Origin: Halarcobacter mediterraneus
Lineage (GTDB): Bacteria > Campylobacterota > Campylobacteria > Campylobacterales > Arcobacteraceae
Assembly (NCBI RefSeq): GCF_004116625.1
Contig: NZ_NXIE01000003.1
Span: 124,001-188,000 of the forward strand
Direction: 5' to 3'
Length of the DNA stretch: 64,000 nucleotides
The position numbers were made by a program, and so were the translations under genes. How positions within the stretch are numbered: the stretch's first letter is position 1; the number at the start of each line of letters is the position of its first letter. This document shows, piece after piece, positions 16,386 through 38,695 of the stretch. Under the pieces are notes generated by a model, which saw nothing but the letters and a program-made list of their open reading frames with translations, did no database searches and had not been told where the DNA came from.

Positions 16386-16453
16386 GATTGGCCTAATATT
16401 TAAATGTAATATTTTAACATTTTATCTCTTGGTAATAAATAATAAGCTTTACC

Positions 16454-17737
16454 TTAGAAATAACCTGCTGAAAAGACTCCATGTTTTGATTCCGAATTTA
16501 AAGTACATAAAGAATAAATAACTTTTTGTTTTTTTTCACTATTAGTGTAAAAAATCTTAGTTTTTGTTTTTACACCTACTGCTGCTAAGTCAAAATTTGA
16601 ATTATTTATTTCAATAGGTTTATCTATTATTATGCTTGTTGCAGTCATTTGAACTTCTGAATTAATAATAAAACTACTCTTTTTTAAATCTAGTTTTGAA
16701 TTTAAAATATCAACTTTAGAATTATCTATAATCAACTCTTCAATAAAAGCATCTTTTATATCTATTTCTTTACTATCATGAATTTCTACTTTTTTAAAGT
16801 AACCCTTTAAAACTCTATTCTCATCATTTCTAATTACAATTTCTCTAGATGATGGCTCTATTTTAGTATCTTTTTTTATATATCTTTTTGTTTTTAGATG
16901 TTTTTTTAACAACCTTAAATAGATATCAAAGTTGTCTATCATTGGAGTATGTTTTGAGTCTTCAATAATTTCTAGTTTAGAATTTTTAATTAATTTATTT
17001 AAAGCATACCCTGTTCTAAGAGGTGCTGTTTTATCATCTTTCCCCCATATTATTAAAGTTGGTACTTTAATCTTCTGTGGAATGGTAGAAAAATCTTCTT
17101 CAGCTAAAGCCATTGCAGCAATTGTATTGGGATTTGAACGAAATATAACTTTTCGTGAAACTTTAGAATTTAGCATAGTATCCACTTCAAAGGGTATAAT
17201 AGAATCTATCACTTGTGGAAGTTCAGACACAAAATCAGAGATAGCATCACTTTTAACTTTCTCTTTAACTTTGTATTTAAGCAAAAATTCTGAATAAGCA
17301 GCTTTATGTAAAATACCTGCTGCATCTATAAGCGTTAAACTCTTTACTCTTTCTTGATGAGTACTTGTATATTTTAAACTAATACTAGCTCCCATGGAGT
17401 GTCCTACTAAATGAAAAGGTTTATCAATAAAGTTATCTATTAGAGTATCTATAAAACCTACATATCTTTTAGGAGAATATAATTGGTTGGATTTATCTGA
17501 TTTTCCAAAACCTGGTAAATCAAATATCAAAATATAGTAATCTTTTTTTAAAGCTTCAACTGATTCAAGCCAAATAGATGAAGCCTCTTTTCCTAAACCA
17601 TGAACAAAAACTATTGCTTCATTTTTAGGATTGCCATAAGTTTCTACATAACTTACTTCATTAAAGATTGGTTCTTTAATAAACTGGGCATTTAAACAAT
17701 AAATAAAGAAAGAAAATGTGAAAAGAAACTTTTTCAT
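16454..17737 (-). CDS. Exported alpha/beta hydrolase at the edge of the pigment cluster
   Basis: This 427-residue protein has a signal peptide (residues 1-17, ending CLNAQ). Its alpha/beta-hydrolase domain (about 25-285) has an oxyanion-type HGLG (46-49), a nucleophile elbow GHSMGA with Ser114, an aspartate in WGKDD and a histidine in SKHTP. The last 130 residues form short repeating strands rich in D, N, I and S (for example IDNSKVDILNSKLDLKKSSF), which suggests a small beta-solenoid. Its start shares a base with the stop of the dehydratase gene, so it is in the pigment operon. It may be a periplasmic esterase or acyl-transfer enzyme acting on the pigment; this is inference. Confidence 0.78.
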   Translation of the reverse strand: MKKFLFTFSFFIYCLNAQFIKEPIFNEVSYVETYGNPKNEAIVFVHGLGKEASSIWLESVEALKKDYYILIFDLPGFGKSDKSNQLYSPKRYVGFIDTLIDNFIDKPFHLVGHSMGASISLKYTSTHQERVKSLTLIDAAGILHKAAYSEFLLKYKVKEKVKSDAISDFVSELPQVIDSIIPFEVDTMLNSKVSRKVIFRSNPNTIAAMALAEEDFSTIPQKIKVPTLIIWGKDDKTAPLRTGYALNKLIKNSKLEIIEDSKHTPMIDNFDIYLRLLKKHLKTKRYIKKDTKIEPSSREIVIRNDENRVLKGYFKKVEIHDSKEIDIKDAFIEELIIDNSKVDILNSKLDLKKSSFIINSEVQMTATSIIIDKPIEINNSNFDLAAVGVKTKTKIFYTNSEKKQKVIYSLCTLNSESKHGVFSAGYF

Positions 17738-18090
17738 TACTCTTGTATCATTACTGTTAAAACACCTGTTGCATAATTTGTATTCTCTGATAAATCAAAA
17801 ACATTAAAAGAGAATTCACAAACAGCGCCAAACTCTAAATTCTTTTCTACTTTAATTATATAATCTAAAGTATCTGGTTCTTTATTTAGTTTTACTTCTC
17901 TTACTGATACTAAAAAACCGATTTTCGCTTCTTTTTCTTGTGAAAATCCTGCAGAACTTTGAGCTGCTGCTTCAAAAAGCATTGGCAATGTTGGTAAAGA
18001 AGTAAATTCACATTTTACTTTTATAAACTCTTTATTTACTTCCAAAAGTTCTTTTGCAAATTTTATTGGTTCTTGATGAGGGATATTCAT
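17737..18090 (-). CDS. ApeP-like hotdog 3-hydroxyacyl-ACP dehydratase subunit
   Basis: This 117-residue single-hotdog protein resembles the dehydratase subunits of aryl polyene clusters. It opens with IPHQEP, like the LPHR.P of FabZ, and has FEAAAQSSAGF with Glu40 in the place of the FabZ catalytic glutamate. The FabZ catalytic histidine (GHFP motif) is not present. The other hotdog protein of the cluster (21476-21796) shows the opposite loss, so they may form a heterodimer like ApeI:ApeP. It overlaps the chain-length-factor gene by four bases. Confidence 0.78.
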   Translation of the reverse strand: MNIPHQEPIKFAKELLEVNKEFIKVKCEFTSLPTLPMLFEAAAQSSAGFSQEKEAKIGFLVSVREVKLNKEPDTLDYIIKVEKNLEFGAVCEFSFNVFDLSENTNYATGVLTVMIQE

Positions 18091-18725
18091 AGTTTCACCT
18101 CTATAATATTTTTTTGATTTTCATTGAACTGTTTTGCATATGATAAAAGTTCTTTTACAGACTCTGGACACTTAGTATTATCATCTTTTAAATCCATTGT
18201 TGCTTCTTCTTTAGTAAGTTTTACTTTTAAAGCAACTGCAACTTCAAGAAAATCAGTACACTTATTTACTTGCTCAATATTTTCAATATTCATAGTTTCA
18301 GTAACCACTAATAAAATTTCATCCCCATCTAATGCTTTTATAGCTCCCATTTTTAGAAGCCTATTAGAAGTATTGTCTCCACAAGAGATAGTCAAGATTT
18401 CACTTTCATTTTTTTCTAAAATTGAAGCATAAGATACAGGAGTATTATAAACAGAGTTTTGAAAACCTGTAGGAGAGATTCCCTCTTTATTTAAAATTGC
18501 ATTTAAAATATTTGCAGTTGCAGGAAGTTCACCATATGCACTTCCATACATAATTCTTCCTTGTTTAAAATCAACTTTATCCATAAGCTCTACTGTTAAC
18601 TTAGAGGCTCTTGTTAACCTTCTTCTAAATACCATCTTAGGAACTAAAGCTTTTGTATTTAGATCTTCAACTTGTGTAGGAGCTAATAAAAATGCTGCAT
18701 TTAAAATCTCTAAATTAATTGTCAT
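18087..18725 (-). CDS. Beta-ketoacyl synthase chain-length factor (ApeC-like)
   Basis: This 212-residue protein matches the short ketosynthase-like chain-length factors of aryl polyene clusters (Ketoacyl-synt_2 type). The typical segments are VFRRRLTRASKL (about 32-43), YGSAYGELPATANIL (about 60-74) and SPTGFQNSVYNTPVSYASIL (about 84-103). No KS active-site cysteine motif is present. It overlaps the adjacent ketosynthase gene by 11 bases, which fits a KS:CLF heterodimer that sets polyene length, as shown for ApeO:ApeC. Confidence 0.85.
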   Translation of the reverse strand: MTINLEILNAAFLLAPTQVEDLNTKALVPKMVFRRRLTRASKLTVELMDKVDFKQGRIMYGSAYGELPATANILNAILNKEGISPTGFQNSVYNTPVSYASILEKNESEILTISCGDNTSNRLLKMGAIKALDGDEILLVVTETMNIENIEQVNKCTDFLEVAVALKVKLTKEEATMDLKDDNTKCPESVKELLSYAKQFNENQKNIIEVKL

Positions 18726-19839
18726 TACTTAGTCCTAAAAGAATACTTGTATTGTTTCCACCAAAGGCAAATGAGTTAGAAAGTACATATGAAACTTCTT
18801 GTTTTAATGGTTCATTCGTAAATGAAATATCTTCTCTTTCAACATCTTTGATATTTTTTGAAGGTGGTATTATCTGTTTTTGTAAACTCATACAAGCAAT
18901 AACAGCTTCAATAGCTCCAGCAGCTCCTAAAGTATGTCCTGTAAAAGATTTTGTTGAACTAACATAAGGTTTTGAAGTATCAAATACCAATGAAATTGCA
19001 TTTAACTCTGAAGAATCATTTGCCATAGTTCCTGTACCGTGGGCATTGATATAAGATATTTTTTCTTTATTTATTTTTGCATCATTAATGGCATTTTGCA
19101 TTGCTTTTGCAGCACCTAAACCTTCAGGGTGAGGCTGAGTCATGTGGTGACCATCTGAACTATATCCTGCTCCACATATTTCGACACTTTTTGAATCTTC
19201 TTTTTCATCTTGGATTAAAAGAACTGCAATAGCTTCAGCTACATTCATTCCTTCTCTATTCTTTTCAAAAGGTGTGCAAGGTTTTGATGATAAAACACTT
19301 AGTGCTGAAAACCCACAAACAGTAGTATAAGATAAAGCATCTACGCCAACTACTAAAACATTTTTATAAATACCTTTATTTATTACCTCTTTTGCATAAC
19401 CTAATGCATTTGCACTAGAAGTACAAGCTGTAGAAAAAGAGATGTCATCATAAAAAGTGAAATCTTGTTTTAGATGATAAGCAATTGCATCAATTGGATG
19501 TTTTTTATAATCAATATTTTCGTAACTTGAATCTTTAAAAAAAACTTTTTCTGTTTCATTCATTCCACCAACAGAAGAGCCAATTATAAGTAAAGTATTA
19601 TTGTAGTTTTCTAGATTAGAGTTTGTAAGTACTTTGTTTACTGTTTTTGTAAGTAAGTCATTAAAAGGTAATTTTGAATCAATTTTTCCAATTGCAACAC
19701 TTCTATCTTGAACATAAGAATTATCAATTGAAATACAATCTTTTTTTTCGCAGATTGAAGCGAAAAGCTGTTGGGAATCAAGTCCAGCACAGCTTACTGC
19801 TTCAAAACTATTTATATATGCCTTTTTATTTGTTATCAT
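18715..19839 (-). CDS. Beta-ketoacyl-ACP synthase of the aryl polyene pathway (ApeO-like)
   Basis: This 374-residue FabB/F-type ketosynthase should condense malonyl units onto the aryl-polyene ACP chain. The catalytic triad is intact: Cys139 in FSTACTSS, His267 in INAHGTG and His302 in FTGHTLGAAG. It lies between the ACP (14-base overlap) and the chain-length factor (11-base overlap), so all three are expected in fixed ratio. The triad and context together distinguish it from the housekeeping FabF, which is not in this window. Confidence 0.9.
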   Translation of the reverse strand: MITNKKAYINSFEAVSCAGLDSQQLFASICEKKDCISIDNSYVQDRSVAIGKIDSKLPFNDLLTKTVNKVLTNSNLENYNNTLLIIGSSVGGMNETEKVFFKDSSYENIDYKKHPIDAIAYHLKQDFTFYDDISFSTACTSSANALGYAKEVINKGIYKNVLVVGVDALSYTTVCGFSALSVLSSKPCTPFEKNREGMNVAEAIAVLLIQDEKEDSKSVEICGAGYSSDGHHMTQPHPEGLGAAKAMQNAINDAKINKEKISYINAHGTGTMANDSSELNAISLVFDTSKPYVSSTKSFTGHTLGAAGAIEAVIACMSLQKQIIPPSKNIKDVEREDISFTNEPLKQEVSYVLSNSFAFGGNNTSILLGLSNDN

Positions 19840-20080
19840 TAATATATTTTAATAAGTTCTCTACTGATGCGAAAATTTCATTATACTGCTCTGGGTTTTG
19901 AATTTTTACACCATACTCTTTTTCAATAATTAATACTAATTCAATTGAATCAACTGAATCTAAACCTAAACCCTCATCACCAAAAAGTGCATCTGCATCT
20001 TCAATATCTCCAACTTCAATATCTTCAAGTTTTAAACCATCAATCAAAACTTGCTTAAATTCATTGCTTGAAATTGCCAT
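19826..20080 (-). CDS. Acyl carrier protein 1 of the aryl polyene pathway
   Basis: This 84-residue acidic ACP has the phosphopantetheine site GLGLDSVDSIEL, with the serine of DSVD near residue 56. It is longer at the N-terminus than housekeeping AcpP. It lies just upstream of the ketosynthase gene with which it overlaps. A 77-base gap separates it from the flavin enzyme gene; that gap contains a short hairpin and a possible promoter, so ACP levels may be set separately. Confidence 0.92.
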   Translation of the reverse strand: MAISSNEFKQVLIDGLKLEDIEVGDIEDADALFGDEGLGLDSVDSIELVLIIEKEYGVKIQNPEQYNEIFASVENLLKYINDNK

Positions 20081-20157
20081 TAATTTTATACCTCTTTTAG
20101 TCTATTTTATTATTATATTATATTATTTTAGCCCTTTTAGACATCTTATATAGATGT

Positions 20158-21372
20158 TTAAACCATTGAAATAAGGGCATCGATTTTTTGTTTTGAACTT
20201 CTAACAAAGTAGTTATCTTCATCCCAAACATATCCAGAAAGAATTGAAGCTACTGATTGTTTTATCTTTTCAGCTTTATTTGGAGCATAGAAAATTTTTC
20301 TTAATTTTCCTTCATACCAAGCATAAACAAATTCTCTAAATACATTAATTCCAATCATCATATAATCTTCATAATCTTTTTGCCAATCTACTTTTTCACC
20401 ATTTAATTCTTTAATAATTAAATCCCCAACTCTATCAGAAGACTCTAAAGCAAGAGTAACACCAGAAGAGAAAACTGGGTCTAAAAACTCAGTTGCATTT
20501 CCACTTAATGCAAAACCTTTTCCATGCATAGTTTTAATTGCTGATGAGTAACCATTAATAACTCCTACAGGTCTTAATTTCTTTGCATCTTTGTATTTTT
20601 CTTTTAAGTATTCGTGCTCATTGATTACTTTATCAAAGAATTCTTCAAGACTAAGACCTGTTTTCTCAAAGTATGTTTCTTCACAAACGACACCAATTGA
20701 TGTTACTCCATCACTAAAAGGAATTCCCCATAACCATGCTTTATTATCATCATGAATTACAATATCAATAAAACCTTCATTATCACCTTTTCTTCTTGTT
20801 TCACCTTCAACTCTTGTGAAAATTGCATTTCTAAGTCTTAAATCTGATGGGATATCTAAATCTAAAAGTTTAGGTAATACTCTTCCATATCCAGAGGCAT
20901 CTAATACAAATCTTGCTTTAAATACTTTTTCTTCACCATTTTCATCTGTTGCAGTAACTTTGTTATTGTCATTATCATAAGCAATTACTTCATACTTATG
21001 TCTAACATCTGCTCCCCGTTTTTTAGCAGTTCCTAAAAGAACATTATCAAACTCTTCTCTTTTTACTTGATAACTTGTTCCCCATTTTTGACCTAAGTTA
21101 TTTCTAAAATCAATTAGCTCTTCTTGTTTTTTTTCATCAATAAAAATTGCACCTGGCTTTAGCATAAAACCTTGCTCTTCAATAACATCAATTAAACCAT
21201 TTTTCTCTAAAATCTCATTACATCTTGGAAGTAGTGATTCTCCAATAACAAACCTAGGAAACTCTAACTTTTCTAATATTATTACACTAAAGCCAGCTTT
21301 TAATAATTTACACGCAGCAACAGAACCACTAGGTCCCCCACCAATAACCAACACATCACAATTTTCTTCCAT
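20158..21372 (-). CDS. FAD-dependent halogenase-like oxidoreductase
   Basis: The start is placed at the ATG at 21372, which has GGAGG six bases upstream, in preference to an upstream ATG at 21396. The 404-residue flavoprotein has a Rossmann motif GGGPSG (11-16), the halogenase-type WLWGIP (213-218, matching WxWxIP), and GFMLKPGAIF with Lys72 where phenol-type halogenases carry their catalytic lysine. It could halogenate or hydroxylate the aryl head group; both changes are known in flexirubin and xanthomonadin pigments. The start region forms the divergent promoter with the rightward cluster operon. Halogenase against monooxygenase activity cannot be settled by sequence alone. Confidence 0.8.
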   Translation of the reverse strand: MEENCDVLVIGGGPSGSVAACKLLKAGFSVIILEKLEFPRFVIGESLLPRCNEILEKNGLIDVIEEQGFMLKPGAIFIDEKKQEELIDFRNNLGQKWGTSYQVKREEFDNVLLGTAKKRGADVRHKYEVIAYDNDNNKVTATDENGEEKVFKARFVLDASGYGRVLPKLLDLDIPSDLRLRNAIFTRVEGETRRKGDNEGFIDIVIHDDNKAWLWGIPFSDGVTSIGVVCEETYFEKTGLSLEEFFDKVINEHEYLKEKYKDAKKLRPVGVINGYSSAIKTMHGKGFALSGNATEFLDPVFSSGVTLALESSDRVGDLIIKELNGEKVDWQKDYEDYMMIGINVFREFVYAWYEGKLRKIFYAPNKAEKIKQSVASILSGYVWDEDNYFVRSSKQKIDALISMV

Positions 21373-21409
21373 TAAGTCCTCCAAGAAGTAATACAAATAA
21401 CTTTTTCTT

Positions 21410-21438
21410 ATTATATACTTAGTTTACTTTTGATACAA
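21410..21438 (-). promoter_or_regulatory. Leftward promoter of the pigment cluster
   Basis: On the minus strand TTGTAT (21433-21438) and a perfect TATAAT (21410-21415) are 17 bases apart. They precede the flavin enzyme start by about 38 bases. This promoter overlaps the rightward one at 21423-21451. Confidence 0.6.
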
Positions 21439-21451
21439 TTGAATCTAATAT
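21423..21451 (+). promoter_or_regulatory. Rightward promoter of the pigment cluster
   Basis: TTTACT (21423-21428) and TAATAT (21446-21451) lie 17 bases apart, about 25 bases before the dehydratase TTG start. The two divergent promoters share DNA, so polymerase binding should be mutually exclusive unless a regulator intervenes. Confidence 0.5.
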
Positions 21452-21475
21452 TTGTATAAACAAGGTAATAAGTAA

Positions 21476-21796
21476 TTGAACAATTTATATAGTTTTAATG
21501 TTCTAAAAAAAGAGAATGACTATACTGAAATAGAAGTATTATTTGCAGACAAAAGTCATGAAATTTTCAAAGCTCACTTTCCTGATAATAGTTTACTTCC
21601 AGGATTTCTTCAAATAGATATCATAAGTGAAATTTTATCAATCAAAGTTATAGAAATAAAAAAAGCTAAATTTTTACAAGCAATTCTTCCAAAAGATAAA
21701 GTTACTTATTTTGTAAAGATAAAAGATAAAACTTTTAATGTAAAAGTCGAAAAAGAAAATAAAAAATGTAGTGAGTTCTCCATTGTACAAAAATGA
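21476..21796 (+). CDS. ApeI-like hotdog dehydratase subunit
   Basis: This 106-residue FabZ-like hotdog protein has AHFPDNSLLPGF with His34 in the catalytic position. Residue 48, fourteen positions later where FabZ has glutamate, is aspartate. It is therefore complementary to the Glu-only dehydratase at 17737-18090, and the pair may make one working heterodimer. The start is a TTG with AAGGT eight bases upstream. It is the first gene of the long rightward cluster operon and overlaps the glycosyltransferase gene by 26 bases. Confidence 0.78.
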   Translation: MNNLYSFNVLKKENDYTEIEVLFADKSHEIFKAHFPDNSLLPGFLQIDIISEILSIKVIEIKKAKFLQAILPKDKVTYFVKIKDKTFNVKVEKENKKCSEFSIVQK

Positions 21797-22487
21797 TATT
21801 ATCATAGTTGTTCCTACTTTCAACAATCCAAAAACAATCTCAAATGTAATAAAAGATATTTTAAATCACAACTACAAAGTAATCGTTGTAGATGATGGTT
21901 CAGATATTAAAGTTTCTTGTTTAATTGAAAAAAATGAAGATGTTACTGTTTTAAGACATGAACAAAACCAAGGTAAGGGTCAAGCTATTCTTACAGGTGC
22001 AAAAAAAGCAAAAGAGCTTGGATATGAGTATTTTATAAGTATGGATGGAGATGGTCAACATCTTGCTTCAGAAATAGCAAAACTAAAAGCCTGCATAAAT
22101 AGTAAAAACCAAATTGTTATGGGTGCTAGAAATTTTGAAATAGACAATGTTCCACAAAAGTCAAAAATAGGAAGAATCTTTCACAACTTTTGGATTAGAT
22201 TAAATAGTGGTTATCCTATAAATGATTCTCTAACTGGTTTTAGACTTTATCCTGTTTCAATACTTGATTTAAATATCAAAACAAGAAGATTTAACTTTGA
22301 GGTTGAAGTTTTAGTAAAACATTATTGGAAACACAAAAACATTACTGATACAATAATTGAATGCTATTATCCGACTCCTGAAGAAAGAGTAAGTCACTTT
22401 GATAATTATAATGACACAATAAATATTACACTTTTACATCTAAAACTTTTTTTACAAAAGATATTTTTATTAAAAGGTATTCTTTAA
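21771..22487 (+). CDS. GT2-family glycosyltransferase
   Basis: This 238-residue GT-A fold enzyme has IVVPTFNNPKTI at the start, VVDDGSD (about 40-46) and the DXD-type MDGDGQH (about 91-97). GT2 proteins of this size occur in nearly all aryl polyene clusters, where they are thought to help attach or anchor the pigment. The start used is a GTG inside the previous gene. No membrane segment of dolichyl-phosphate-mannose synthase type is seen. The acceptor is unknown. Confidence 0.85.
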   Translation: MSSPLYKNDIIIVVPTFNNPKTISNVIKDILNHNYKVIVVDDGSDIKVSCLIEKNEDVTVLRHEQNQGKGQAILTGAKKAKELGYEYFISMDGDGQHLASEIAKLKACINSKNQIVMGARNFEIDNVPQKSKIGRIFHNFWIRLNSGYPINDSLTGFRLYPVSILDLNIKTRRFNFEVEVLVKHYWKHKNITDTIIECYYPTPEERVSHFDNYNDTINITLLHLKLFLQKIFLLKGIL

Positions 22488-23353
22488 TGGCAACAAAGCA
22501 AAGAGTTGGTGGACCTATTGTAAAAACTCTATATTCATTTTATAAAATATTTGGATATGGAAGTGTTTATTTCTCTTTGTATTTTGTTGTTTTATATTAC
22601 TTTTTATTTGCTTCAAATGTAAGGAAATCTTTAAAGCAATACTATAAAAATATTGGTGAAGAGTTTTCAAATAAAAAATATTTTAAACACCTATTTAACT
22701 ATGCCCTAGCTACCTCTGATAGATTTATCTCAAAGGCAAACCCAGAAATATATAACTTCATAAACCAAAATAGAAATGAACTACTAAATGAGTTAAAAAA
22801 TGGTTCTATTCTTCTATCAAACCATTTTGGTGGTTGGGCAACAGCAAGTAATTATTTTAAAGATGACAATATTAAAATAAATATAATTATGAATGAAGCT
22901 ATGATAAAAAATGCAAGTGAATTTGAACAAGTTATAGATAAAAAAAATGATAAAAATGTAAACATCATCGACCTGTCAAAGGGTGATATTGCTACATCAA
23001 TTTCAATTGGAAATGCTTTACTAAATAATGAAGCTGTTGCTTTAATGGGTGATAGAGCTATAAACAAAAAACACCTACACAAAATCTCTTTCTTTAAAAA
23101 AGATGCAAACTTTAATAAAAATCCATTTCTTATTGCATATAAAACAAAAAAACCTATTATTGCACTTTTTGTTGTTTTAAAAAAGAAAAAAACTTACGAA
23201 ATGATATTTGAAAGAATTAATATAAATACCAATAAAAAGGAAAATGAAGCTGTAGAAGAGGCTATGCAAAGGTATGTAAAACTATTAGAGAAAACTTTAA
23301 AAGAACACCCTTTACAATGGTTCAATTTTTACGATTTCTGGGAGGACAAATGA
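22487..23353 (+). CDS. LpxL/HtrB-type lysophospholipid acyltransferase
   Basis: This 288-residue protein belongs to the LABLAT acyltransferase family that includes LpxL. An N-terminal membrane helix (about 22-45) precedes the catalytic LSNHFGGWA motif (histidine near residue 108), with GDRAI further on (about 184-188). Homologues occur beside the GT2 gene in aryl polyene clusters, where they are thought to link the pigment to a lipid-like carrier. Its stop overlaps the ammonia-lyase start (ATGA). Confidence 0.83.
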   Translation: MATKQRVGGPIVKTLYSFYKIFGYGSVYFSLYFVVLYYFLFASNVRKSLKQYYKNIGEEFSNKKYFKHLFNYALATSDRFISKANPEIYNFINQNRNELLNELKNGSILLSNHFGGWATASNYFKDDNIKINIIMNEAMIKNASEFEQVIDKKNDKNVNIIDLSKGDIATSISIGNALLNNEAVALMGDRAINKKHLHKISFFKKDANFNKNPFLIAYKTKKPIIALFVVLKKKKTYEMIFERININTNKKENEAVEEAMQRYVKLLEKTLKEHPLQWFNFYDFWEDK

Positions 23354-24870: not shown

Positions 24871-24880
24871 AGAGTTTATT

Positions 24881-25582: not shown

Positions 25583-25584
25583 GA

Positions 25585-29847: not shown

Positions 29848-29888
29848 TAGTTTGCTATACTTCGCAAAATACGGGGAAAAGATATTTA

Positions 29889-30749
29889 ATGTCAATAGTT
29901 ATAAAAAATCTATGTAAATCCTATAAGGGAAATCTTGTTTTAGATAATCTAAATTTAGAAATAAAGCAAGGCTCTTTATTTGGTTTATTAGGTCCAAATG
30001 GAGCAGGAAAAACCACTTTAGTATCTATATTAAACTTTTTAGTTCCAAAGGATTCAGGAACAGCTTTAATTGATAATATGGATTTAGATAAAGAAGAAAA
30101 CAAAATAAAATCTATTTGTAGTATTGTTCCTCAAACTTATGCATTTTATCCAAAACTAACTGCCTTTGAAAACTTAGAGTTTTTTGGAAGTCTTTATGGA
30201 CTAAGAAAAGAAGCCCTAAAAAAAAGAATTGAATACTGTATTGAAGTAACTTCTTTAGAAAAATATATAAATAAACAAGCCCACACTTTTTCAGGTGGCT
30301 TAAAAAGAAGATTGAATATTGCTATTGGTTTATTAAATAGTCCAAAAATTTTATACCTAGATGAGCCAACAGTTGGAATTGATCCACAATCAAGAAAATA
30401 TATTTTAAATGTTATTAAAAAAATCAATGAAAAAGAGAAAACTACTATTATTTATACTTCCCACTATATGGAAGAAGTAGAATTTTTATGTGATGAAATA
30501 GCTATTTTAGATAAGTCAAAAATCATTTTACAAGAGAAAAAAGAGAATTTGCTACATAAGAATTCAATTATAAAAATAAAACTTTTAGATGAAGTTATAG
30601 AAGTTGATACAAAAGATGGTTTTGATAACTTTACTAAGATGATTGCAAAATTAGAAAAAGAGAATAAAAGAATAGAAAATATTGATTTTGGATATAAAAA
30701 TCTTGAAGATATGTTTTTAAATTTAACAAAACAGGATTTAAGAGACTAA
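29889..30749 (+). CDS. ABC transporter ATP-binding protein
   Basis: This 286-residue ATPase has Walker A GPNGAGKTT (about 35-43), the signature FSGGLKRR (about 135-142), Walker B ILYLDEP (about 154-160) and the switch histidine of TSHYMEE. A 41-base gap separates it from the ligase gene, the longest gap inside the rightward operon. It overlaps its ABC-2 permease gene by one base. ABC pairs are also found in flexirubin-type clusters; export of pigment or precursor is the likely role. Confidence 0.88.
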   Translation: MSIVIKNLCKSYKGNLVLDNLNLEIKQGSLFGLLGPNGAGKTTLVSILNFLVPKDSGTALIDNMDLDKEENKIKSICSIVPQTYAFYPKLTAFENLEFFGSLYGLRKEALKKRIEYCIEVTSLEKYINKQAHTFSGGLKRRLNIAIGLLNSPKILYLDEPTVGIDPQSRKYILNVIKKINEKEKTTIIYTSHYMEEVEFLCDEIAILDKSKIILQEKKENLLHKNSIIKIKLLDEVIEVDTKDGFDNFTKMIAKLEKENKRIENIDFGYKNLEDMFLNLTKQDLRD

Positions 30750-31909
30750 TGTTTAAATATTTACTAAAAAAAGAGTTTACACTTATCTTTAGAGATTTAC
30801 ATGCTTTATTAGTATTATTTGTAATGCCTGTTATTTTTATTTTAATTATGTCATTGGCTTTAAAAAATAGTTATTCAAATAGTGTAGATACACCTTTAAA
30901 AGTTGCTATTACAAGCTCTAAAAACAACAAGTCCATCAAAACGATGATTGAAAGTATCAATGAAAACAACTTCTTCGATGCTAACTTTCTAAAAGTAAAA
31001 GATAATAAAGAGATTCTATATAAAGAAAACTATGATTTTATAATAGATATTCAAAGAAACTATATTGAAAGAATAAAACTAAATGATAAAAACTTTAAAG
31101 TATCTATTTATACTAAACCAGATAGCTCTTTACAAAAAATAGAGATTCTTAAAAAAGTTATTTCAAGTGCAAGTACAAAACTTATCTTAGAAGATTTAAT
31201 GCTTGCTCAAAAAATAGATACAAAAAATGTACTTGATTTTGAGTCTAAAATACAAAACTCATATATCTATAAAAAAGATGGCTTTGAAGTAAAACCAACA
31301 TCAGTGCAGCAAAGTGTTCCTGCATGGCTTGTCTTCTCTATGTTTTTTATATTAATTCCTATATCAAATACTTTTATAAACGAAAAAGCCTTTGGAACAA
31401 TTGATAGAATTAGAAGTATAAATGTTTCACTCTTTCCTATTTTATTAGGAAAAATTGTTCCATACTATTTTATAAATCAAGTACAAGTAGTATTTATGAT
31501 ACTTGTTGGTATGTACATTGTTCCACTACTAGGTGGAGATTCCCTAGTTATACAAGGAAGTATTCCTTTGATTTTCTTAGTTTCATCTGCTGTTAGTTTT
31601 GCTTCTATCTCTTTTGCACTTTTAATTGCAAACATAGCTAAAACAACAGAAGAAGCAACAACTATCGGTGGTGTTTCAAATATTATTCTAGCAGCAATTG
31701 GTGGAATCATGGTTCCAAAATTTGTAATGCCAAAATTTATGCAAGACTTTTCAGAATACTCTCCAATGTCTTGGGGATTAGAGAGCTTCTTAGAAGTATT
31801 TGTTAGAGGTGGAAGTTTTAATGACATTTCTACTTATGTTTATAACATGATAACTTTTGCTATAATCTGTTTACTATTAGCATATATTTTACTAAAAAAG
31901 AGGAGATAA
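30749..31909 (+). CDS. ABC-2-type transporter permease
   Basis: This 386-residue membrane protein has one N-terminal helix, a large extracytoplasmic domain (about 45-185) and a bundle of five helices at the C-terminus (about 195-385), which is the layout of ABC-2 exporters such as YhhJ or DrrB-like proteins. GTIDRIRS and AAIGGIMVPKFVMP (family-type) are seen. It forms the transporter with the preceding ATPase and is followed after one base by an ACP gene. Confidence 0.88.
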   Translation: MFKYLLKKEFTLIFRDLHALLVLFVMPVIFILIMSLALKNSYSNSVDTPLKVAITSSKNNKSIKTMIESINENNFFDANFLKVKDNKEILYKENYDFIIDIQRNYIERIKLNDKNFKVSIYTKPDSSLQKIEILKKVISSASTKLILEDLMLAQKIDTKNVLDFESKIQNSYIYKKDGFEVKPTSVQQSVPAWLVFSMFFILIPISNTFINEKAFGTIDRIRSINVSLFPILLGKIVPYYFINQVQVVFMILVGMYIVPLLGGDSLVIQGSIPLIFLVSSAVSFASISFALLIANIAKTTEEATTIGGVSNIILAAIGGIMVPKFVMPKFMQDFSEYSPMSWGLESFLEVFVRGGSFNDISTYVYNMITFAIICLLLAYILLKKRR

Positions 31910-31910
31910 A

Positions 31911-32177
31911 TTGATAGGTTCTAAAGATGAGAAGTTAAAACTAGAATTAAAAGAATTAATTATTGAAGAGTGCGATAAAGATATTGAGCCAGAAGATATA
32001 AGTGATAATGAAGTACTATTTGGTTCAGACACAGAATTAGAACTTGACTCAATGGATGCCTTACAAATATCTATGGCTTTACATAAAAAATATGGAGTTG
32101 ATGCAAATGATAGTAAAAAACTTAGAAAAATTATGGCGTCAATAAATACTTTAGCAGACCATATACAACCGGAATAA
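31911..32177 (+). CDS. Acyl carrier protein 2 of the cluster
   Basis: This 88-residue acidic ACP has the phosphopantetheine site LELDSMDALQI, with the serine near residue 44. It starts with TTG after an AGGAGA ribosome binding site, two bases from the permease stop. It precedes a second ketosynthase pair by two bases. By analogy with ApeE/ApeF the two ACPs probably serve different stages, such as starter loading and chain growth. Confidence 0.9.
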   Translation: MIGSKDEKLKLELKELIIEECDKDIEPEDISDNEVLFGSDTELELDSMDALQISMALHKKYGVDANDSKKLRKIMASINTLADHIQPE

Positions 32178-32179
32178 CA

Positions 32180-33328
32180 TTGAACGCATATATTACAGGT
32201 AGCTCATTAGTTTGCAATATTGCAGATAATAAACAAGATATTATTTCCAATTTAAAAAACATCTCCCCTAAAAGATATCAAGAAAATTTAAAAGAGATTT
32301 TAAAAGAAAAAACTTTCTATAAAATATATAATTATAATTATTCCCAAAATAAAAGATTTCATAAAATCCTTGAAAAAATAATTTCTGATGCATTAAAAGA
32401 GGCAAAAATTTCAAAAGAAGAGCAAGAAGATTTACATATTTTTTTTGGTTCCACATCAATGGAAATGGGAACAAATGAAGAATTTAAAGAAAACTTTGAC
32501 AAAGATGCTAGTGACCTAGAATTCAAAAGTATTGGCTATGGTGCAATTGGTCAATATATAGAAAAAATATTAAATTCAAAACATAAAGCAACTCTTTTTT
32601 CAACAGCTTGTACTTCAAGTGTAAATGCATTAGCATATGCAGCTAAAATGATTGAAAGAAAAAAAATAAAAAAAGCTATAGTTATTGGCTTTGAGCTTTT
32701 TAATAAATCTACGTTTGGTGGTTTTTCTTCTTTAATGCTTCTTTCTCAATCAAAAATATATAGACCTTTTGATAAAAATAGTGATGGTATTATCTTAGGA
32801 GAAGGTTGTTCAGCTGTTATTTTAGAAAATGAAAAAAAAGAAGAAGATAATTTTAAATATATCTCTTCTTCAAATATTTGTGATAATTACTCTGAAACTA
32901 CAAGTGATCCTACAGGAACTCCTATTTTTGAAGCTATGAATAGTGCTTTAAATGCTGCAAACTTACAAGTAAAAGATTTAGATTGTATAAAAGCTCATGC
33001 TACAGGAAGTGAAAATAATAACTCTTCTGAAGCAAAAGCTTTAGCACAACTATTTGATACTTATAAAGAAAGCACGCAAGTTACTGCTTTAAAACCTATT
33101 TTAGGACATACTTTAGGTGCTTGTGGTACAAATGAAATTGTCTTAATGATTGAAGCTATTAAAAATAGTTTTCTTCCTGCAACTTTTGGCTTTGAAGAGC
33201 CAATTGAAAACTTAGCCTTTACTCCAATTTTAGAAAATAAAACTTGTGAAAATAAACAAACTATTTTATTAAACTATGTTGCCTTTGGTGGAAATAATAG
33301 TTCAATTATTTTAAGCAACAAGGATTGA
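32180..33328 (+). CDS. Second beta-ketoacyl-ACP synthase of the cluster
   Basis: This 382-residue FabF-type ketosynthase keeps all catalytic residues: Cys144 in FSTACTSS, His273 in IKAHATG and His310 in ILGHTLGACG. It is diverged from the ketosynthase at 18715-19839 and may act like ApeR or XanH-type ketosynthases. It starts with TTG two bases after the ACP stop. The next gene encodes a cysteine-less ketosynthase-like partner, so this is a second KS:CLF-type pair. Confidence 0.88.
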   Translation: MNAYITGSSLVCNIADNKQDIISNLKNISPKRYQENLKEILKEKTFYKIYNYNYSQNKRFHKILEKIISDALKEAKISKEEQEDLHIFFGSTSMEMGTNEEFKENFDKDASDLEFKSIGYGAIGQYIEKILNSKHKATLFSTACTSSVNALAYAAKMIERKKIKKAIVIGFELFNKSTFGGFSSLMLLSQSKIYRPFDKNSDGIILGEGCSAVILENEKKEEDNFKYISSSNICDNYSETTSDPTGTPIFEAMNSALNAANLQVKDLDCIKAHATGSENNNSSEAKALAQLFDTYKESTQVTALKPILGHTLGACGTNEIVLMIEAIKNSFLPATFGFEEPIENLAFTPILENKTCENKQTILLNYVAFGGNNSSIILSNKD

Positions 33329-33329
33329 T

Positions 33330-34160
33330 ATGTATATTCACTCTACTTATAAACTTATCAATTCAAACACAAGTGTTAAAGAGTATAGAAAAGAGCTAAA
33401 AGAGATTTCAAAGATAAATCTTAGAAGATCAAGTAAGTTTAATATCTTAGCAGTCCTAGGAGCGCTAAGAGCTACAAAAGATATTAACCTTGGACAAAAC
33501 CTTGGGATTTATATTGCAAGTGAATATGGGCCTATTAATGATGTTTATAAACTAATGCAAACAATAAATGAAGAAAACAATATTGTAATGCCTTTTGATT
33601 TTTTAAATGTAAATAGCAACAATGTTAGCTTTTATGTTTCCCAAGCTTTAAATGCAAAGGGTAAAAACATGCTTTTAACTTCTCAATACTTGTCATTTGA
33701 AAAATCCTTACAACTTGCACAGTTTGAACTTGAAATAGATGAGATATCAGATATCTTAATTGGAGCAGTTGATGAATCCTTAGATGAAGTAAAAGATTAT
33801 GAAAAGTATGTAAGTTTTGCAAATAATCAAGCTTCAAAAGATGGAAGTTGTTGGTTATATTTAAACAATGATAAGTCTAACTCTTTGGGAAAAATTACAA
33901 ACATCCAAGAGTTTAGTTCAAGTAAAGAGTTAATAGACAGTATTAAAGACTCTTATACGAAAATATCTTTTAATCAGTTTGCACAAAATGATGAAACTAT
34001 TACTTCTAAGTTTGATAGTAAAAAAGTTATTGACCAAAAGGATTTCTTTGGATGTGAAGGAGCGTTAAGAGTTTTAGAATTACTTGAGTATAAAGGTGAA
34101 CACCTTTATATTGCAAAAGATGTTAATAATAACTTCATAACAATAGAACTTAAAATTTAA
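33330..34160 (+). CDS. Ketosynthase-like protein without active-site cysteine
   Basis: This 276-residue protein resembles the N-terminal part of a ketosynthase (GIYIASEYGPINDVYKL near 59-75). Where the partner has ATLFSTACTSS it has MLLTSQYLS, with Gln119-Tyr120 at the cysteine position. A glutamine close to this place recalls type II chain-length factors. It lacks the two histidine motifs. It probably pairs with the preceding ketosynthase and modulates length or loading. It is the last gene of the rightward operon and ends inside a perfect palindrome. Confidence 0.72.
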   Translation: MYIHSTYKLINSNTSVKEYRKELKEISKINLRRSSKFNILAVLGALRATKDINLGQNLGIYIASEYGPINDVYKLMQTINEENNIVMPFDFLNVNSNNVSFYVSQALNAKGKNMLLTSQYLSFEKSLQLAQFELEIDEISDILIGAVDESLDEVKDYEKYVSFANNQASKDGSCWLYLNNDKSNSLGKITNIQEFSSSKELIDSIKDSYTKISFNQFAQNDETITSKFDSKKVIDQKDFFGCEGALRVLELLEYKGEHLYIAKDVNNNFITIELKI

Positions 34161-34170
34161 GTTCTATTGT
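34140..34170. terminator. Perfect 31-bp palindrome holding both converging stop codons
   Basis: The 15-base arms 34140-34154 and 34156-34170 are exactly complementary around one central base. The rightward TAA (34158-34160) and the leftward TAG (34164-34166, minus strand) both lie inside it. It would form the same hairpin in either transcript and separate the APE operon from the DAR operon. Confidence 0.75.
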
Positions 34171-35156
34171 ACTTTCTTTAATAGTTTGAAAGCCTTTTCT
34201 TCATAAGTTGAAGCTTCTACTAATTTTTCAGCAATTTTATTTGGATCAAATTTATCAATTTTTTTACTAGACTCTACACAAAGTAAAGCAAACTCTCTTA
34301 AAGTATTTCCTGATTTTACAAGTAAAGAAGATGCTTCCTCTAATAACTCATTATCTAAATCATACTTTTTTACTTCTTTTAAAAATGCCGCATATAAGAA
34401 CCTAAAGCCTCCGCCTCCAGTTCCTATTTCTTCTTGCATTCTAACAATATGAGTCAAATAGTTTTTTAAATATCTAGGGTCAGAAGTAGGATTTAGTTTT
34501 GAGATTTTCTTTGCTAATGTTCTCATTCCTTTTACTCCTGCATAAGGAAAAGGAGTTAACATTGATTTAGCATTTTTCTTTATTGCTTTTTTAACAATCG
34601 ATTCAAAATCAAGATTATTTGGAATATTTTTAGGATAATACATAAAACCTTTTGGTGCAAATACTCCCTTTGCAAATCTTGCTCTTGTAAGCTCTTGTTC
34701 ATCACATAAAACAGCTTCTTCAAAAACAGGGTCAGATATTTTATAATCTTTTCCCTCTTTTCCATAAACTAATAGATTATGAGCATTAAAGTGGAATCTC
34801 ATATCCTTTGGAAAATATGGAAGATAAAAAACTGATGTTTGAAGACCAACTAATTGATTGTCTTCCACAAATTTAGTCAAATCACTATTTGCATCATCTT
34901 CACTTTTATATGTTTTTTTTACAATCTCTACACCTAAAACTTTTGATACCTTGTTAATTATATTTTTTGGAAGTTCTCTATATGCTATTAAAGGCATATT
35001 ATTAAGTTTTATTATTGGAAGAAATACAAAAGATAAAGAGCTAGTAAGACCAAAAACCATTGGCTCACTAAGCTTTAACCCATAATGAGTTAATAAAGTC
35101 GAAACAACTCCACTTTCACAGTGTGCAAATTGTAAATGTTCAAACTTTTCACTCAT
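34164..35156 (-). CDS. BtrH N-terminal domain protein, candidate pigment acyltransferase
   Basis: This 330-residue protein matches the BtrH N-terminal domain family with a DUF4872-like C-terminus. The opening HCESGVVSTLL carries His12-Cys13, the probable nucleophile of this papain-like fold. BtrH moves an acyl group from an ACP to an aminoglycoside in butirosin biosynthesis. By analogy this protein could move the aryl polyene acyl chain from ACP to a dialkylresorcinol hydroxyl, making the flexirubin-type ester. It is the last gene of the leftward DAR operon and overlaps the 131-residue protein gene by four bases. Confidence 0.8.
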   Translation of the reverse strand: MSEKFEHLQFAHCESGVVSTLLTHYGLKLSEPMVFGLTSSLSFVFLPIIKLNNMPLIAYRELPKNIINKVSKVLGVEIVKKTYKSEDDANSDLTKFVEDNQLVGLQTSVFYLPYFPKDMRFHFNAHNLLVYGKEGKDYKISDPVFEEAVLCDEQELTRARFAKGVFAPKGFMYYPKNIPNNLDFESIVKKAIKKNAKSMLTPFPYAGVKGMRTLAKKISKLNPTSDPRYLKNYLTHIVRMQEEIGTGGGGFRFLYAAFLKEVKKYDLDNELLEEASSLLVKSGNTLREFALLCVESSKKIDKFDPNKIAEKLVEASTYEEKAFKLLKKVQ

Positions 35157-35548
35157 ACTTTAAAATCCTTTAACTCTTCTATTTTGATATTAAACGCTTG
35201 GGCATATTTTGATAAAATCTTATCATTTAGTTTTTTGAAATGTTTCATTTTTAGATGTCTTTTCACTCTAAATTGAAACATTTCTACAACACTTGCTAGT
35301 GTTGGTAAATCCATTCTATTTTCAAACATAAAGTATTCAATAGGAGAACTAAGACCTTTTTTTATATTCTCTAAGCTCTCTACTTTTAAAACTTCATACT
35401 CTTCTACTGCAACTTGTGTAGCAAATTCCTCAACAGAACTTCCATAATTAATTCTTTGAAAATCACCCTTCTCATCTGTAGAATACATCACTTTTTGATG
35501 TCCTTCTAATATCTTATTCTCCTCTTTTGGAACTTCTATCTTTTGCAT
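35153..35548 (-). CDS. Uncharacterised 131-residue protein of the DAR operon
   Basis: This is a soluble, charged protein with no signal peptide, membrane helix or cysteine. The first half is acidic; the second half (about 80-131) is basic and probably helical (MFQFRVKRHLKMKHFKKLND). It lies between darB and the BtrH-like gene with overlaps of one and four bases, so a link to DAR assembly or to the acyl transfer is likely. I do not recognise a domain. Confidence 0.7.
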   Translation of the reverse strand: MQKIEVPKEENKILEGHQKVMYSTDEKGDFQRINYGSSVEEFATQVAVEEYEVLKVESLENIKKGLSSPIEYFMFENRMDLPTLASVVEMFQFRVKRHLKMKHFKKLNDKILSKYAQAFNIKIEELKDFKV

Positions 35549-36687
35549 TAAACAACTTCTAAATACATAAAGGCCGTTGAGAATCTTCCACTTTCAGGAA
35601 TATAACAAAGAAGTTTCTGACCTTTTTTTAATTTATTTGAGTTAAACAACTCTTCAAGCATAATATAAATTGATGCAGAACCTGTATTTCCAAACTCTGT
35701 AAGATTTGTAAACCATTTTTCAAAAGGAATTTCTAAACCACCTTTTTTCATTCCTTCATATACTTTTTCTCTAAAAAAAGTTGAGGAATAATGGGGAACA
35801 AAGTAAGCAATATCTTCTTCTTTTAAATCTCTTTTTTCTAATATCTTTTGAATAGGTTTTGTTACAGTATATTCAATAATATTTTCATTTAAAAGTTTTA
35901 CGTTTTGTTTTATTGATAAAAGAGATTTACTCATAACTTCTTGCTGTTCTAAAGCTCTCCACGGTGTGATATTGTGATTTTCATCAAATTCACAACCACT
36001 ATACATACAAGTTGGCATTTCACCTGCATAAGATAAAATATCAATCCATTTTACTTCTAATGACAGACCTTTTTCATTTGGTTTGTTTTCTAAAAGCATT
36101 GCTCCAGCACCATCAGATAACATCCATCTTAAAAAATCTTTTTCAAACTCAATTCCTGGATTTTTTTCTAACTCTTTATAATTAGATTCTTCTTTAAAAT
36201 TATTTGAATTTAATATCATTGATGAAGTTTCTGAACCAGTTGAAATACCATTTGTTAGTTCACCTGCTTTTATTCCATAATAGATGTATTTTAAGGCATT
36301 TATTCCACTTAAACAAATACCTGAAGCACTTAAAGTCTCGATTTCATTTATTCCTAACTCCCCTTGTACCATAAGAGTATGTCCAGGCATTAATTGATCA
36401 GCCGAAGTTGTTCCACAAGATAAAGCTTCTAACTTTTCTAAGTTAAAATCATCATTTTCTAATTTTTTTATAGCATTAGCAGTAATTTGTGCATTTGTAA
36501 AAAGAGGTTTTAAACTATTTTTTTCTAGTACATAAAATCTTCTTTTTATTCCATTACTTCTAAGTACTATTTTTTTAGCTTTTGATTTCTTTCCACCTAT
36601 ATAACCTAAATATTCTTCCATTTCATCATTTAATACTGGTTTATTTGGCATAAATTTTTGTATATTGTTTATATAAACACTGTTCAT
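35548..36687 (-). CDS. darB: Ketosynthase III-like enzyme DarB
   Basis: This 379-residue thiolase-fold enzyme resembles DarB, which condenses two acyl-derived chains into a cyclohexanedione in dialkylresorcinol biosynthesis. The KASIII-type triad is complete: Cys125 in SASGICLSG, His299 in FVPHYSS and Asn334 in FGNTGSASI. It is longer and more divergent than FabH and lies directly behind darA, the pairing known from Azoarcus and flexirubin producers. The DarB reading depends on this context. Confidence 0.87.
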   Translation of the reverse strand: MNSVYINNIQKFMPNKPVLNDEMEEYLGYIGGKKSKAKKIVLRSNGIKRRFYVLEKNSLKPLFTNAQITANAIKKLENDDFNLEKLEALSCGTTSADQLMPGHTLMVQGELGINEIETLSASGICLSGINALKYIYYGIKAGELTNGISTGSETSSMILNSNNFKEESNYKELEKNPGIEFEKDFLRWMLSDGAGAMLLENKPNEKGLSLEVKWIDILSYAGEMPTCMYSGCEFDENHNITPWRALEQQEVMSKSLLSIKQNVKLLNENIIEYTVTKPIQKILEKRDLKEEDIAYFVPHYSSTFFREKVYEGMKKGGLEIPFEKWFTNLTEFGNTGSASIYIMLEELFNSNKLKKGQKLLCYIPESGRFSTAFMYLEVV

Positions 36688-36688
36688 T

Positions 36689-37639
36689 TTATAAAAAATC
36701 CTTCATTCTATCTTTTGCACTTCCAGAGGGTGCTTCAAATACTTCTTTTTGTTTTAAAATTTTCTCTTTATTAACTTTTCTAATTATTGTTTGAACCAAC
36801 ATATTAATTGGAACAATTGTTAAAATAATTAAAAGTAAAAAAAACACATAAAGCATTACTATAGGCTTTCTTTTAGGGTCCCCTTGTTTTCCAACTTTTC
36901 TAATAAGTTTTCCCCAAATCATAAAACTTTTAGTTGCTATTTGTTCACTTTTTATTAGTTTTTCATCTATTATAACTGCATTTAATCCATGGCAAATAGA
37001 TTCTTGTTTTTTCTCTTCATCATTTGCTAAAGCATGACTTATTGCTTTACCAAATCTTGAAGCTTCTTTTATATCTTGTTTTGAAATACCAGCCTCTGGA
37101 AAAATTCCCCATAAGGAGTCTCTTTTCCCTGTTAACATCCATCTTGGAGTTGTAACAAAAGTTGCAAAAGAGTTTCCTTGGTCAATTAAAACTATATTAT
37201 CTATAAGTTTTGCTTCAACATCACTAAGCATTTGTTTTAATTTTTCTTGTGCCATAACCCACATATTTCTACAACCAATTAAAGTAATAACTGGCTTACC
37301 TTTTAACTTTCTTTTTGCATAATCACTTTTTAAAAAAGCTGTTATTGGTAAAGATGGAGATAAGAACCATACTTGATAAGGTAAAATCACCAAATCATAA
37401 TCATTGTCATCATCTTCTATCTCTTTAATTTCTGGAGGGTCTAAATATATTGATTCTGGAAAACAATCCATAAAAGTCATAAAATCCCATGGAAAAGGAT
37501 ATGGTTTTAATGGTTCAATTTTTTTATAAACCACTTCTACATTTGTATCTGCCTCTAAAGGGGCTAAAACTGAGTCTGTTAATTGTGTTAATTGTCCAGT
37601 CTGAGAGTATGATATAACTAATACTTTTTTAATATTCAA
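36689..37639 (-). CDS. darA: Flavodoxin-fold dialkylresorcinol aromatase DarA
   Basis: This 316-residue protein begins with a flavodoxin-type FMN loop (ISYSQTGQL, 9-17) and continues through YDLVILPYQVWF and GCRNMW (about 136-141). One membrane helix lies near residues 264-284 (LYVFFLLLIILTIV). It matches the DarA family, which oxidises the DarB product to the resorcinol. The gene is first in the leftward DAR operon and ends one base before darB begins. An A/T-rich 109-base gap upstream holds its promoter. Confidence 0.85.
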   Translation of the reverse strand: MNIKKVLVISYSQTGQLTQLTDSVLAPLEADTNVEVVYKKIEPLKPYPFPWDFMTFMDCFPESIYLDPPEIKEIEDDDNDYDLVILPYQVWFLSPSLPITAFLKSDYAKRKLKGKPVITLIGCRNMWVMAQEKLKQMLSDVEAKLIDNIVLIDQGNSFATFVTTPRWMLTGKRDSLWGIFPEAGISKQDIKEASRFGKAISHALANDEEKKQESICHGLNAVIIDEKLIKSEQIATKSFMIWGKLIRKVGKQGDPKRKPIVMLYVFFLLLIILTIVPINMLVQTIIRKVNKEKILKQKEVFEAPSGSAKDRMKDFL

Positions 37640-38693: not shown

Positions 38694-38695
38694 TA

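Follow-up and report, generated by a model that had tools for sequence, protein, structure and literature searches.

A putative flexirubin-type aryl polyene and dialkylresorcinol gene cluster in Halarcobacter mediterraneus, a member of the Campylobacterota

Introduction

In chemotaxonomy, flexirubins serve as a marker of the Bacteroidota (PMC3992019). The clusters described from Chitinophaga pinensis and Flavobacterium johnsoniae (flx and dar genes) start the polyene with an ammonia-lyase and an AMP ligase, and also encode several ketosynthases (KSs), reductases, dehydratases, a LolA protein, a glycosyltransferase, an acyltransferase, an exporter and DarAB (PMC3992019). These features are shared by a locus of Halarcobacter mediterraneus, reported here, which lies in a 64,000 nt stretch of contig NZ_NXIE01000003.1 (positions 124,001 to 188,000; 'the window' below) and combines an aryl polyene module with a dialkylresorcinol (DAR) module. 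It is highly probable that this cluster directs the synthesis of a flexirubin-type pigment, in which an aryl polyene carboxylic acid would be esterified to a dialkylresorcinol, and which would probably be held at the outer membrane; the reactions, their order, the location and the product are those predicted from the genes.

In Azoarcus sp. BH72, which produces arcuflavin, the dar module (darA, B, D, E, F, I, C, J and K) corresponds to that of the window by annotation and order, and the arc genes likewise include a dehydratase, ketoreductase (KR), glycosyltransferase, acyltransferase, LolA protein, exporter, AMP ligase, acyl carrier protein (ACP) and halogenase (PMC3949708). Azoarcus has separate arc and dar loci, a XanB2 chorismatase providing a 3-hydroxybenzoate starter, and a methyltransferase, whereas the window has a single locus with an ammonia-lyase. 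The Azoarcus dar genes also include two, encoding PilT-domain and prevent-host-death proteins (there named darH and darG), that have no counterpart in the window cluster (PMC3949708). NCBI uses other names: Azoarcus darD is DarG of NCBI and Azoarcus darE is DarH. No family of the XanB2 chorismatase type is present among the Pfam matches of the cluster proteins. In the apeA–R stretch of Escherichia coli CFT073, no ammonia-lyase, dar genes or ATP-binding cassette (ABC) pair are annotated, whereas all are present in the window; the E. coli starter is 4-hydroxybenzoate from UbiC (PMC8253772).

Schoner et al. (2014) had noted that genomes of many different kinds contain such genes (PMC3949708), and a full set in the Campylobacterota adds to their case that the flexirubin marker is unsafe. 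Among the titles and the starts of abstracts listed by searches of the open-access literature, no earlier description of the cluster in this phylum was found. Colonies of presumed Arcobacter are described as beige to off-white in a source whose available part does not mention the cluster (PMC6813453). A preliminary description, made from the letters of the window, had proposed a combined aryl polyene and dialkylresorcinol cluster, flexirubin- or arcuflavin-like, in a campylobacterotan of low GC content, and gene identities, synteny and the relatives of DarB bear this out. The cluster is ordinary in kind, a further polyene–DAR pigment cluster; what is added here is the division into modules, the ApeA-like lipoproteins at its end, its distribution and the case for DarH.

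Results and discussion

Two modules in a single locus

The cluster occupies positions 16454–39103 of the window and is made up of three operon-like runs of genes. Two are on the minus strand, from 21396 to 16454 and from 39103 to 34164, and the one between them, from 21476 to 34160, is on the plus strand. The range first given, 16454–37639, fits at its start and is too short at its end, as the cluster continues for 1.5 kb and the region 37749–39103 also belongs to it. Gene identities were assigned from Pfam and NCBIfam and by comparing the cluster with the ape genes of E. coli CFT073. All of the genes named in the preliminary description lie at or beside the places given for them, some with weak identities (among them ApeP-like, LolA-like and DarA).

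E. coli ApeA, C, E, F, G, H, I, J, M, O, Q and R all have matches in the polyene module, and ApeL and ApeP have weak ones; no match to ApeB, D, K or N was found among the 24 of 26 cluster proteins compared. The KS and chain length factor (CLF), KR, dehydratase, ACP and AMP ligase, the set expected of a flexirubin-type cluster, are all found. The KS (18715–19839, −) has ApeO as its best E. coli match (2e-51) and carries the motifs TACTSSA, HGTG and GHTLG. Beside it are an ApeC-like CLF (18087–18725, −; PF13723, 8.3e-20; E. coli ApeC, 2.5e-10) and the ACP of this module (19826–20080, −; PF00550, 1.5e-6; ApeE, 1.6e-14). The two best PDB matches of the CLF, 7f28 and 6qsp, which are also among the best for the KS, are presumably structures of ApeO:ApeC. 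The KR (24881–25582, +) is ApeQ-like (7.9e-48), and the AMP-dependent aryl acid ligase (28633–29847, +) is ApeH-like (PF00501, 2.9e-19; ApeH, 1.7e-18).

Two hotdog dehydratases are present. A count of one was dropped when a short frame with a TTG start (21476–21796, +; 106 aa) proved to be a second, ApeI-like dehydratase; it matches FabA (4.2e-5; 23.6 bits, cut-off 23), the ApeI-like family (1.1e-4; 22.9 bits, under the cut-off of 28.5) and E. coli ApeI (2.8e-5), and has tblastn matches in relatives. The other (17737–18090, −) is weakly ApeP-like; it has no family match, contains conserved PH..P and EAAAQ motifs, and aligns with E. coli ApeP in hhalign at an E value of 0.0028.

ApeJ is one protein in E. 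coli and is split in the window cluster into a GT2 glycosyltransferase resembling its first half (21771–22487, +; 1e-34) and a lipid A-type (LABLAT) acyltransferase resembling its second half (22487–23353, +; 3.9e-18). Further along the same run are genes for an ApeG-like membrane protein (25585–26124, +; phmmer, 4.1e-7), a weakly LolA-like periplasmic protein (26117–26590, +; hhalign to ApeL, E value 0.0025 over 135 columns) and an MMPL-type, ApeM-like exporter (26574–28643, +; phmmer, 1e-16), the last having no match to an MMPL family in Pfam or NCBIfam. Two ApeA-like lipoprotein genes close the cluster on the far side (37749–38693, −; E. coli ApeA, 3.6e-21; and 38696–39103, −), the second encoding a shorter copy that closely resembles residues 1–135 of its neighbour. 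They form a tandem pair here, and matches to the longer one are also interspersed among cluster genes in relatives.

The dar module consists of darA, darB, darG, darH, two ABC genes, an ACP gene and genes for a KS and a KS-like protein. DarB (35548–36687, −) exceeds the cut-off of the StlD/DarB subfamily (NF005293, 590.7 versus 450 bits), and its residues C125, H299 and N334 are identical in 123 of 123 sequences. DarG (35153–35548, −; 131 aa; Azoarcus darD position) belongs to family NF053536 (142.1 bits, cut-off 70). Unlike their counterparts in flexirubin clusters, both score below narrower models, DarB below the exception model for resorcinol DarB (NF053539, 502.3 versus 550 bits) and DarG below the flexirubin DarG equivalog (NF053545, 116.6 versus 170 bits), and the ammonia-lyase similarly falls short of the FlxA model discussed below. 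DarA (36689–37639, −), a flavodoxin-like proposed aromatase, adjoins darB in 14 of 14 relatives. The structural model of DarG (mean predicted local distance difference test score, pLDDT, 77.6) has a helical C-terminal half that is perhaps Cro/C1-like; the best Foldseek E value was 0.003, with none below 0.001. A hotdog enzyme identity for DarG was considered and found to be unsupported.

At the end of the plus-strand run are an ABC exporter ATPase (29889–30749, +), an ABC-2 permease (30749–31909, +), an ACP (31911–32177, +), a KS (32180–33328, +) and a KS-like or CLF-like partner (33330–34160, +), in the positions of Azoarcus darF, darI, darC, darJ and darK, respectively. The partner is identified from its position and a weak match to a KS-family chain (9s5h_C, E value 0.0016). 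Among 80 named loci, ranked by the similarity of their DarB to that of the window, the same dar set is found near darB in Pseudomonas, Aliivibrio and Caulobacter; in Desulfocapsa it lacks the KS pair. Since the set recurs around darB and matches the annotation and order of the Azoarcus dar genes, the second KS pair and the ABC exporter appear to belong to the DAR half. The two KS/CLF-type pairs of the preliminary description were both found, but the notion of two polyene pairs was abandoned; the second, considered as another polyene elongation pair, travels with darAB in the Pseudomonas, Aliivibrio and Caulobacter loci.

In the proposed pathway, the ammonia-lyase would generate an aryl acrylic acid, which the AMP ligase would load onto an ACP, and the KS:CLF, KR and two hotdog dehydratases would extend this aryl starter to a polyene. 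DarB and DarA would build the resorcinol, with either fatty acid synthesis or the ACP, KS and KS-like protein of the dar module feeding them. DarH would then take the polyenoyl group from the ACP onto Cys13 and hand it to a resorcinol hydroxyl, and the GT2 and acyltransferase, ABC, MMPL, ApeG-, ApeA- and LolA-like proteins may anchor and export the product.

DarH as a candidate ester synthase

DarH (34164–35156, −; Azoarcus darE position) matches the NCBIfam family 'BtrH-related acyltransferase DarH' (NF053550) at 471.7 bits against a cut-off of 300. The idea that it is an acyltransferase is not new, the family being already so named. Of 93 sequences, all have H126 and D142, and 98% have C13. 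An AlphaFold2 model built with 25 sequences (mean pLDDT 90.4) fits best to a chain of the AziU2–U3 complex, CtaG and CcbD (292–305 residues, Z 21.4–24.2; the next match has 14.2), with 10–16% identity over nearly the full length of DarH. DarH is thus predicted to fold like carrier-protein-dependent cysteine acyltransferases. Entry titles record CtaG variants at C11, H128 and D144, a spacing much like that of the three DarH residues, by numbering and not by superposition. In CcbD, a Cys-His-Glu ping-pong mechanism serves to transfer an acyl group from a carrier (PMC12945683), and hydroxybenzoate bound to a carrier is the proposed donor for CtaG (PMC6772006). These enzymes act on amines or peptides, whereas the acceptor proposed for DarH is a phenol.

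The genomic distribution of DarH was followed by proxy, PF16169 (DUF4872) being used as a marker of DarH and PF13723 as one of the polyene CLF. PF16169 occurs in 51 of 52 DarAB genomes with PF13723 (50 of 51 when G216, a duplicate of G277, is counted once) versus 0 of 3 without it. Two genomes with CLF and DarB in which DarA was not found (G289 and G610) had been dropped from these counts, as had three lacking CLF (G318, G362 and G481), whose DarB-like proteins are 33–39% identical and whose 4.1 kb loci have no DarA. With the dropped genomes restored, the figures are 51 of 54 genomes with DarB and CLF, and 0 of 6 with DarB and no CLF. Among 377 Gammaproteobacteria, drawn evenly around G282 (itself DarB-bearing and counted), PF16169 was found in 18 of 20 genomes with both DarB and CLF, 0 of 3 with DarB alone, 0 of 70 with CLF alone and 3 of 284 with neither. 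The three stray matches score 117–138 bits, versus 157–189 for the other 18. One further PF16169 search gave 0 of 2 genomes and nothing in its controls, and so shows no absence by itself; the model matched in other searches. A set of 28 named genomes was hand-picked for spread from the 80 loci. Fisher tests on these counts take no account of relatedness among the genomes or of the single duplicate. Taken together, the NCBIfam family, the acyltransferase fold and the way PF16169 tracks DarAB plus polyene CLF make DarH the likely polyene–resorcinol ester synthase. The co-occurrence and the fold give a sharp prediction, and this compact three-operon locus is therefore well suited to testing the ester-forming step.

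This co-occurrence could instead reflect shared descent of one mobile gene set rather than a shared reaction. The dar genes are tightly clustered and DarB relationships are patchy across phyla, as would be expected of such a set; however, several Gammaproteobacteria have the CLF far from darB (~944 kb in G282) or on another contig, with PF16169 still adjoining darB. Shared descent is accordingly an unlikely explanation.

Even less likely is that the locus makes two separate products and no ester, one being an aryl polyene lipid of the E. coli kind and the other a dialkylresorcinol or cyclohexanedione that the ABC pair exports in free form. The GT2 and acyltransferase match the halves of ApeJ, the protein proposed to join polyene and lipid (PMC8253772), and in one genome (G461) DarAB and the polyene CLF are on different contigs with no PF16169. 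Elsewhere, PF16169 follows the pairing of DarAB with polyene CLF, and DarH is a predicted acyltransferase; moreover, the dar module is shared with Azoarcus, whose product is a polyene–DAR hybrid with an ester bond predicted from tandem mass spectrometry (PMC3949708).

Other observations, along with G461, weigh against a flexirubin-type ester from this cluster. The DarAB group without CLF amounts to three genomes, one of them a metagenome-assembled genome (MAG), and the predicted fold of DarH points to acyl transfer but not to the acceptor. Position beside darB is the sole basis for the name DarA, as its flavodoxin matches are all sub-threshold and no family exceeds its cut-off. The LolA-like and ApeP-like assignments are weak. 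No head-group methyltransferase is present among the Pfam matches of the cluster proteins, unlike the E. coli aryl polyene system. Finally, the ammonia-lyase scores 358.4 bits against the FlxA tyrosine ammonia-lyase model (NF053541), for which the equivalog cut-off is 700, and is not assigned to FlxA.

Two side observations concern these genes. The 4.1 kb DarAB locus of G461 contains neither DarG nor DarH, so that this genome offers a natural test of whether or not the products stay separate. Three gammaproteobacterial genomes (G312, G410 and G632) encode a DUF4872 protein with no match to DarB or polyene CLF, possibly a DarH-like acyltransferase of another pathway.

Head group

The aromatic amino acid ammonia-lyase, a 4-methylideneimidazole-5-one (MIO) enzyme (23317–24870, +; PF00221, 4.2e-144; GSVGASGDLT motif), probably supplies the aryl starter. 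Its true start is probably at 23350 rather than 23317, because relatives have stop codons at residues 2–8. It scores 406 bits against the bagremycin/ferroverdin tyrosine lyase model (cut-off 1000). Its selectivity pair is F-H, as in 15 of 18 loci with a match; two others differ and one is a fragment. The preliminary description inferred a head group derived from coumarate or cinnamate; given the low FlxA score and the F-H pair, coumarate, a tyrosine-derived 4-hydroxyphenyl start, is one candidate.

The FAD (flavin adenine dinucleotide) halogenase-like flavoprotein (20158–21396, −) has WLWGIP at residue 221 and GGGPSG at residue 19. These correspond to WxWxIP and the nucleotide-binding GxGxxG, the motifs of flavin halogenases. 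Its closest solved relative is 3nix (1.9e-101), which we take to be a Cytophaga hutchinsonii protein. The gene is variable, being present in the stretches of 7 of 14 relatives. Halogenation is not readable from it, because arcuflavin is described as nonbrominated although an annotated halogenase sits in its cluster (PMC3949708).

The lyase and the flavoprotein bear on a further alternative, that of an inactive cluster or of another polyene product, such as one with a cinnamate starter to which the flavoprotein adds a halogen or hydroxyl group. A published rule places His at the first selectivity position in tyrosine lyases and Phe or His in phenylalanine lyases (PMC3992019), so the F-H pair would fit a phenylalanine lyase, and the WLWGIP motif is also in keeping with this alternative. 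However, the FlxA of C. pinensis departs from the motif rule and is nevertheless a tyrosine lyase (PMC3992019). Decay is unlikely because the catalytic motifs checked are intact and synteny is kept across genera. On balance, an inactive cluster or a different polyene is unlikely. It is likewise doubtful, albeit conceivable, that the Campylobacterota have a flexirubin-like branch of their own, in which a phenylalanine-preferring lyase lineage would lead to a polyene ester with an unsubstituted phenyl head group; the flavoprotein, where present, may add a halogen or hydroxyl group to this ester. To our knowledge, an unsubstituted phenyl head group has not been found in flexirubins.

Distribution and descent

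Of 249 Campylobacterota drawn evenly, nine, the window genome included, have DarB (E value 1e-50 or better); they represent 9 of 56 genera and five families, and all nine also have CLF and PF16169. Within the family of the window genome, 0 of 9 DarB-negative members tested have CLF or PF16169. DarB was found in 23 of the 377 Gammaproteobacteria, 20 of which have both a DarB-family protein and a polyene CLF. The view that such a set is exceptional outside the Bacteroidota and Betaproteobacteria does not survive these counts, and the window genome as a rarity within its phylum was not upheld either.

A search of Campylobacterota genomes for co-occurring darA, darB and apeO-like genes, which the preliminary description had suggested, found them together near darB in 14 of 14 other genomes picked for carrying DarB. 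This set overlaps the sample of nine (G023, G267, G152, G153 and G216; also G032, G258 and G245). In all 14, darA, darB, darG, both KSs, CLF, the darK-like gene, both ACPs and the ABC pair are near darB; the lyase, KR, MMPL and DarH genes are in 13, the AMP ligase in 12 and the flavoprotein in seven. In G258, the DarH match is on a separate contig. An alpha/beta hydrolase gene at the edge of the cluster (16454–17737, −; 427 aa; Abhydrolase_1, 1.2e-30), possibly encoding a lipase or acyltransferase, is near darB in eight of the 14.

In the window, the cluster is flanked by cdsA-dxr (14563–16385) on one side and by an NFACT-family gene (39164–40492) on the other. Both the NFACT and cdsA flanks were found in 7 of 10 Arcobacteraceae genomes (G001, G003, G004, G006, G012, G013 and G267), one in G023 and neither in G152 and G216; for G006, the NFACT flank comes from L024, a stretch of the same contig. 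As the genomes with shared flanks span two genera, the locus looks to have been inherited, with losses, within the Arcobacteraceae. It sits at one conserved site in several members of this family and was not detected in most of the Campylobacterota sampled. By analogy with xanthomonadins, it is a candidate membrane protection trait for the group. A cultured relative, Poseidonibacter lekithochrous A1R12 (L031), also carries the cluster. The epithet of Poseidonibacter lekithochrous means yolk-coloured; no colour is given for this species in the available part of PMC6131481.

The window DarB is identical to that of the MAG Campylobacteraceae bacterium HF-Din13, and the records of its close named relatives bear the title Arcobacter. 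A quick DarB tree comprised 82 rows, 39 of them campylobacterotan (SH-aLRT support; two intended outgroup rows missing); in it, one group holds 26 campylobacterotan rows, from Arcobacteraceae and others, with two gammaproteobacterial rows. A second group holds 12 campylobacterotan rows of Sulfurimonas and Helicobacteraceae types, with Desulfocapsa and Aliivibrio rows among them; one row was unplaced. The tree involves seven changes, at least four of them forced by well-supported branches. A single origin of all campylobacterotan DarB is unsupported by this tree, which suggests exchange of DarB between phyla, within the limits set by long branches and a near lack of Bacteroidota rows.

The genome carrying the cluster is 2.83 Mb. 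The GC content of the cluster is 27.2%, against 29.0% in the remainder of the window, a difference that is uninformative. Between the converging operons is a terminator-like 14 bp inverted repeat (34140–34170), a weak candidate given that one such repeat was found in 16000–35999 versus 5.1 expected in shuffled sequence.

Other observations were made in the genomes compared. In the Desulfocapsa-like genomes G287, G288 and G291, the CLF match lies inside frames of 717–748 aa, perhaps fused KS-type proteins. One record (L029), labelled as a MAG of Helicobacter pylori PMSS1, contains the cluster, with a DarB 74% identical to that of the window; the label of this MAG is probably wrong. Prevotella and Bacteroides plasmids (L142, 19944–21068; L143, 14020–15147) carry a lone DarB-like gene immediately after a TetR/helix–turn–helix regulator gene, with no darA annotated nearby.

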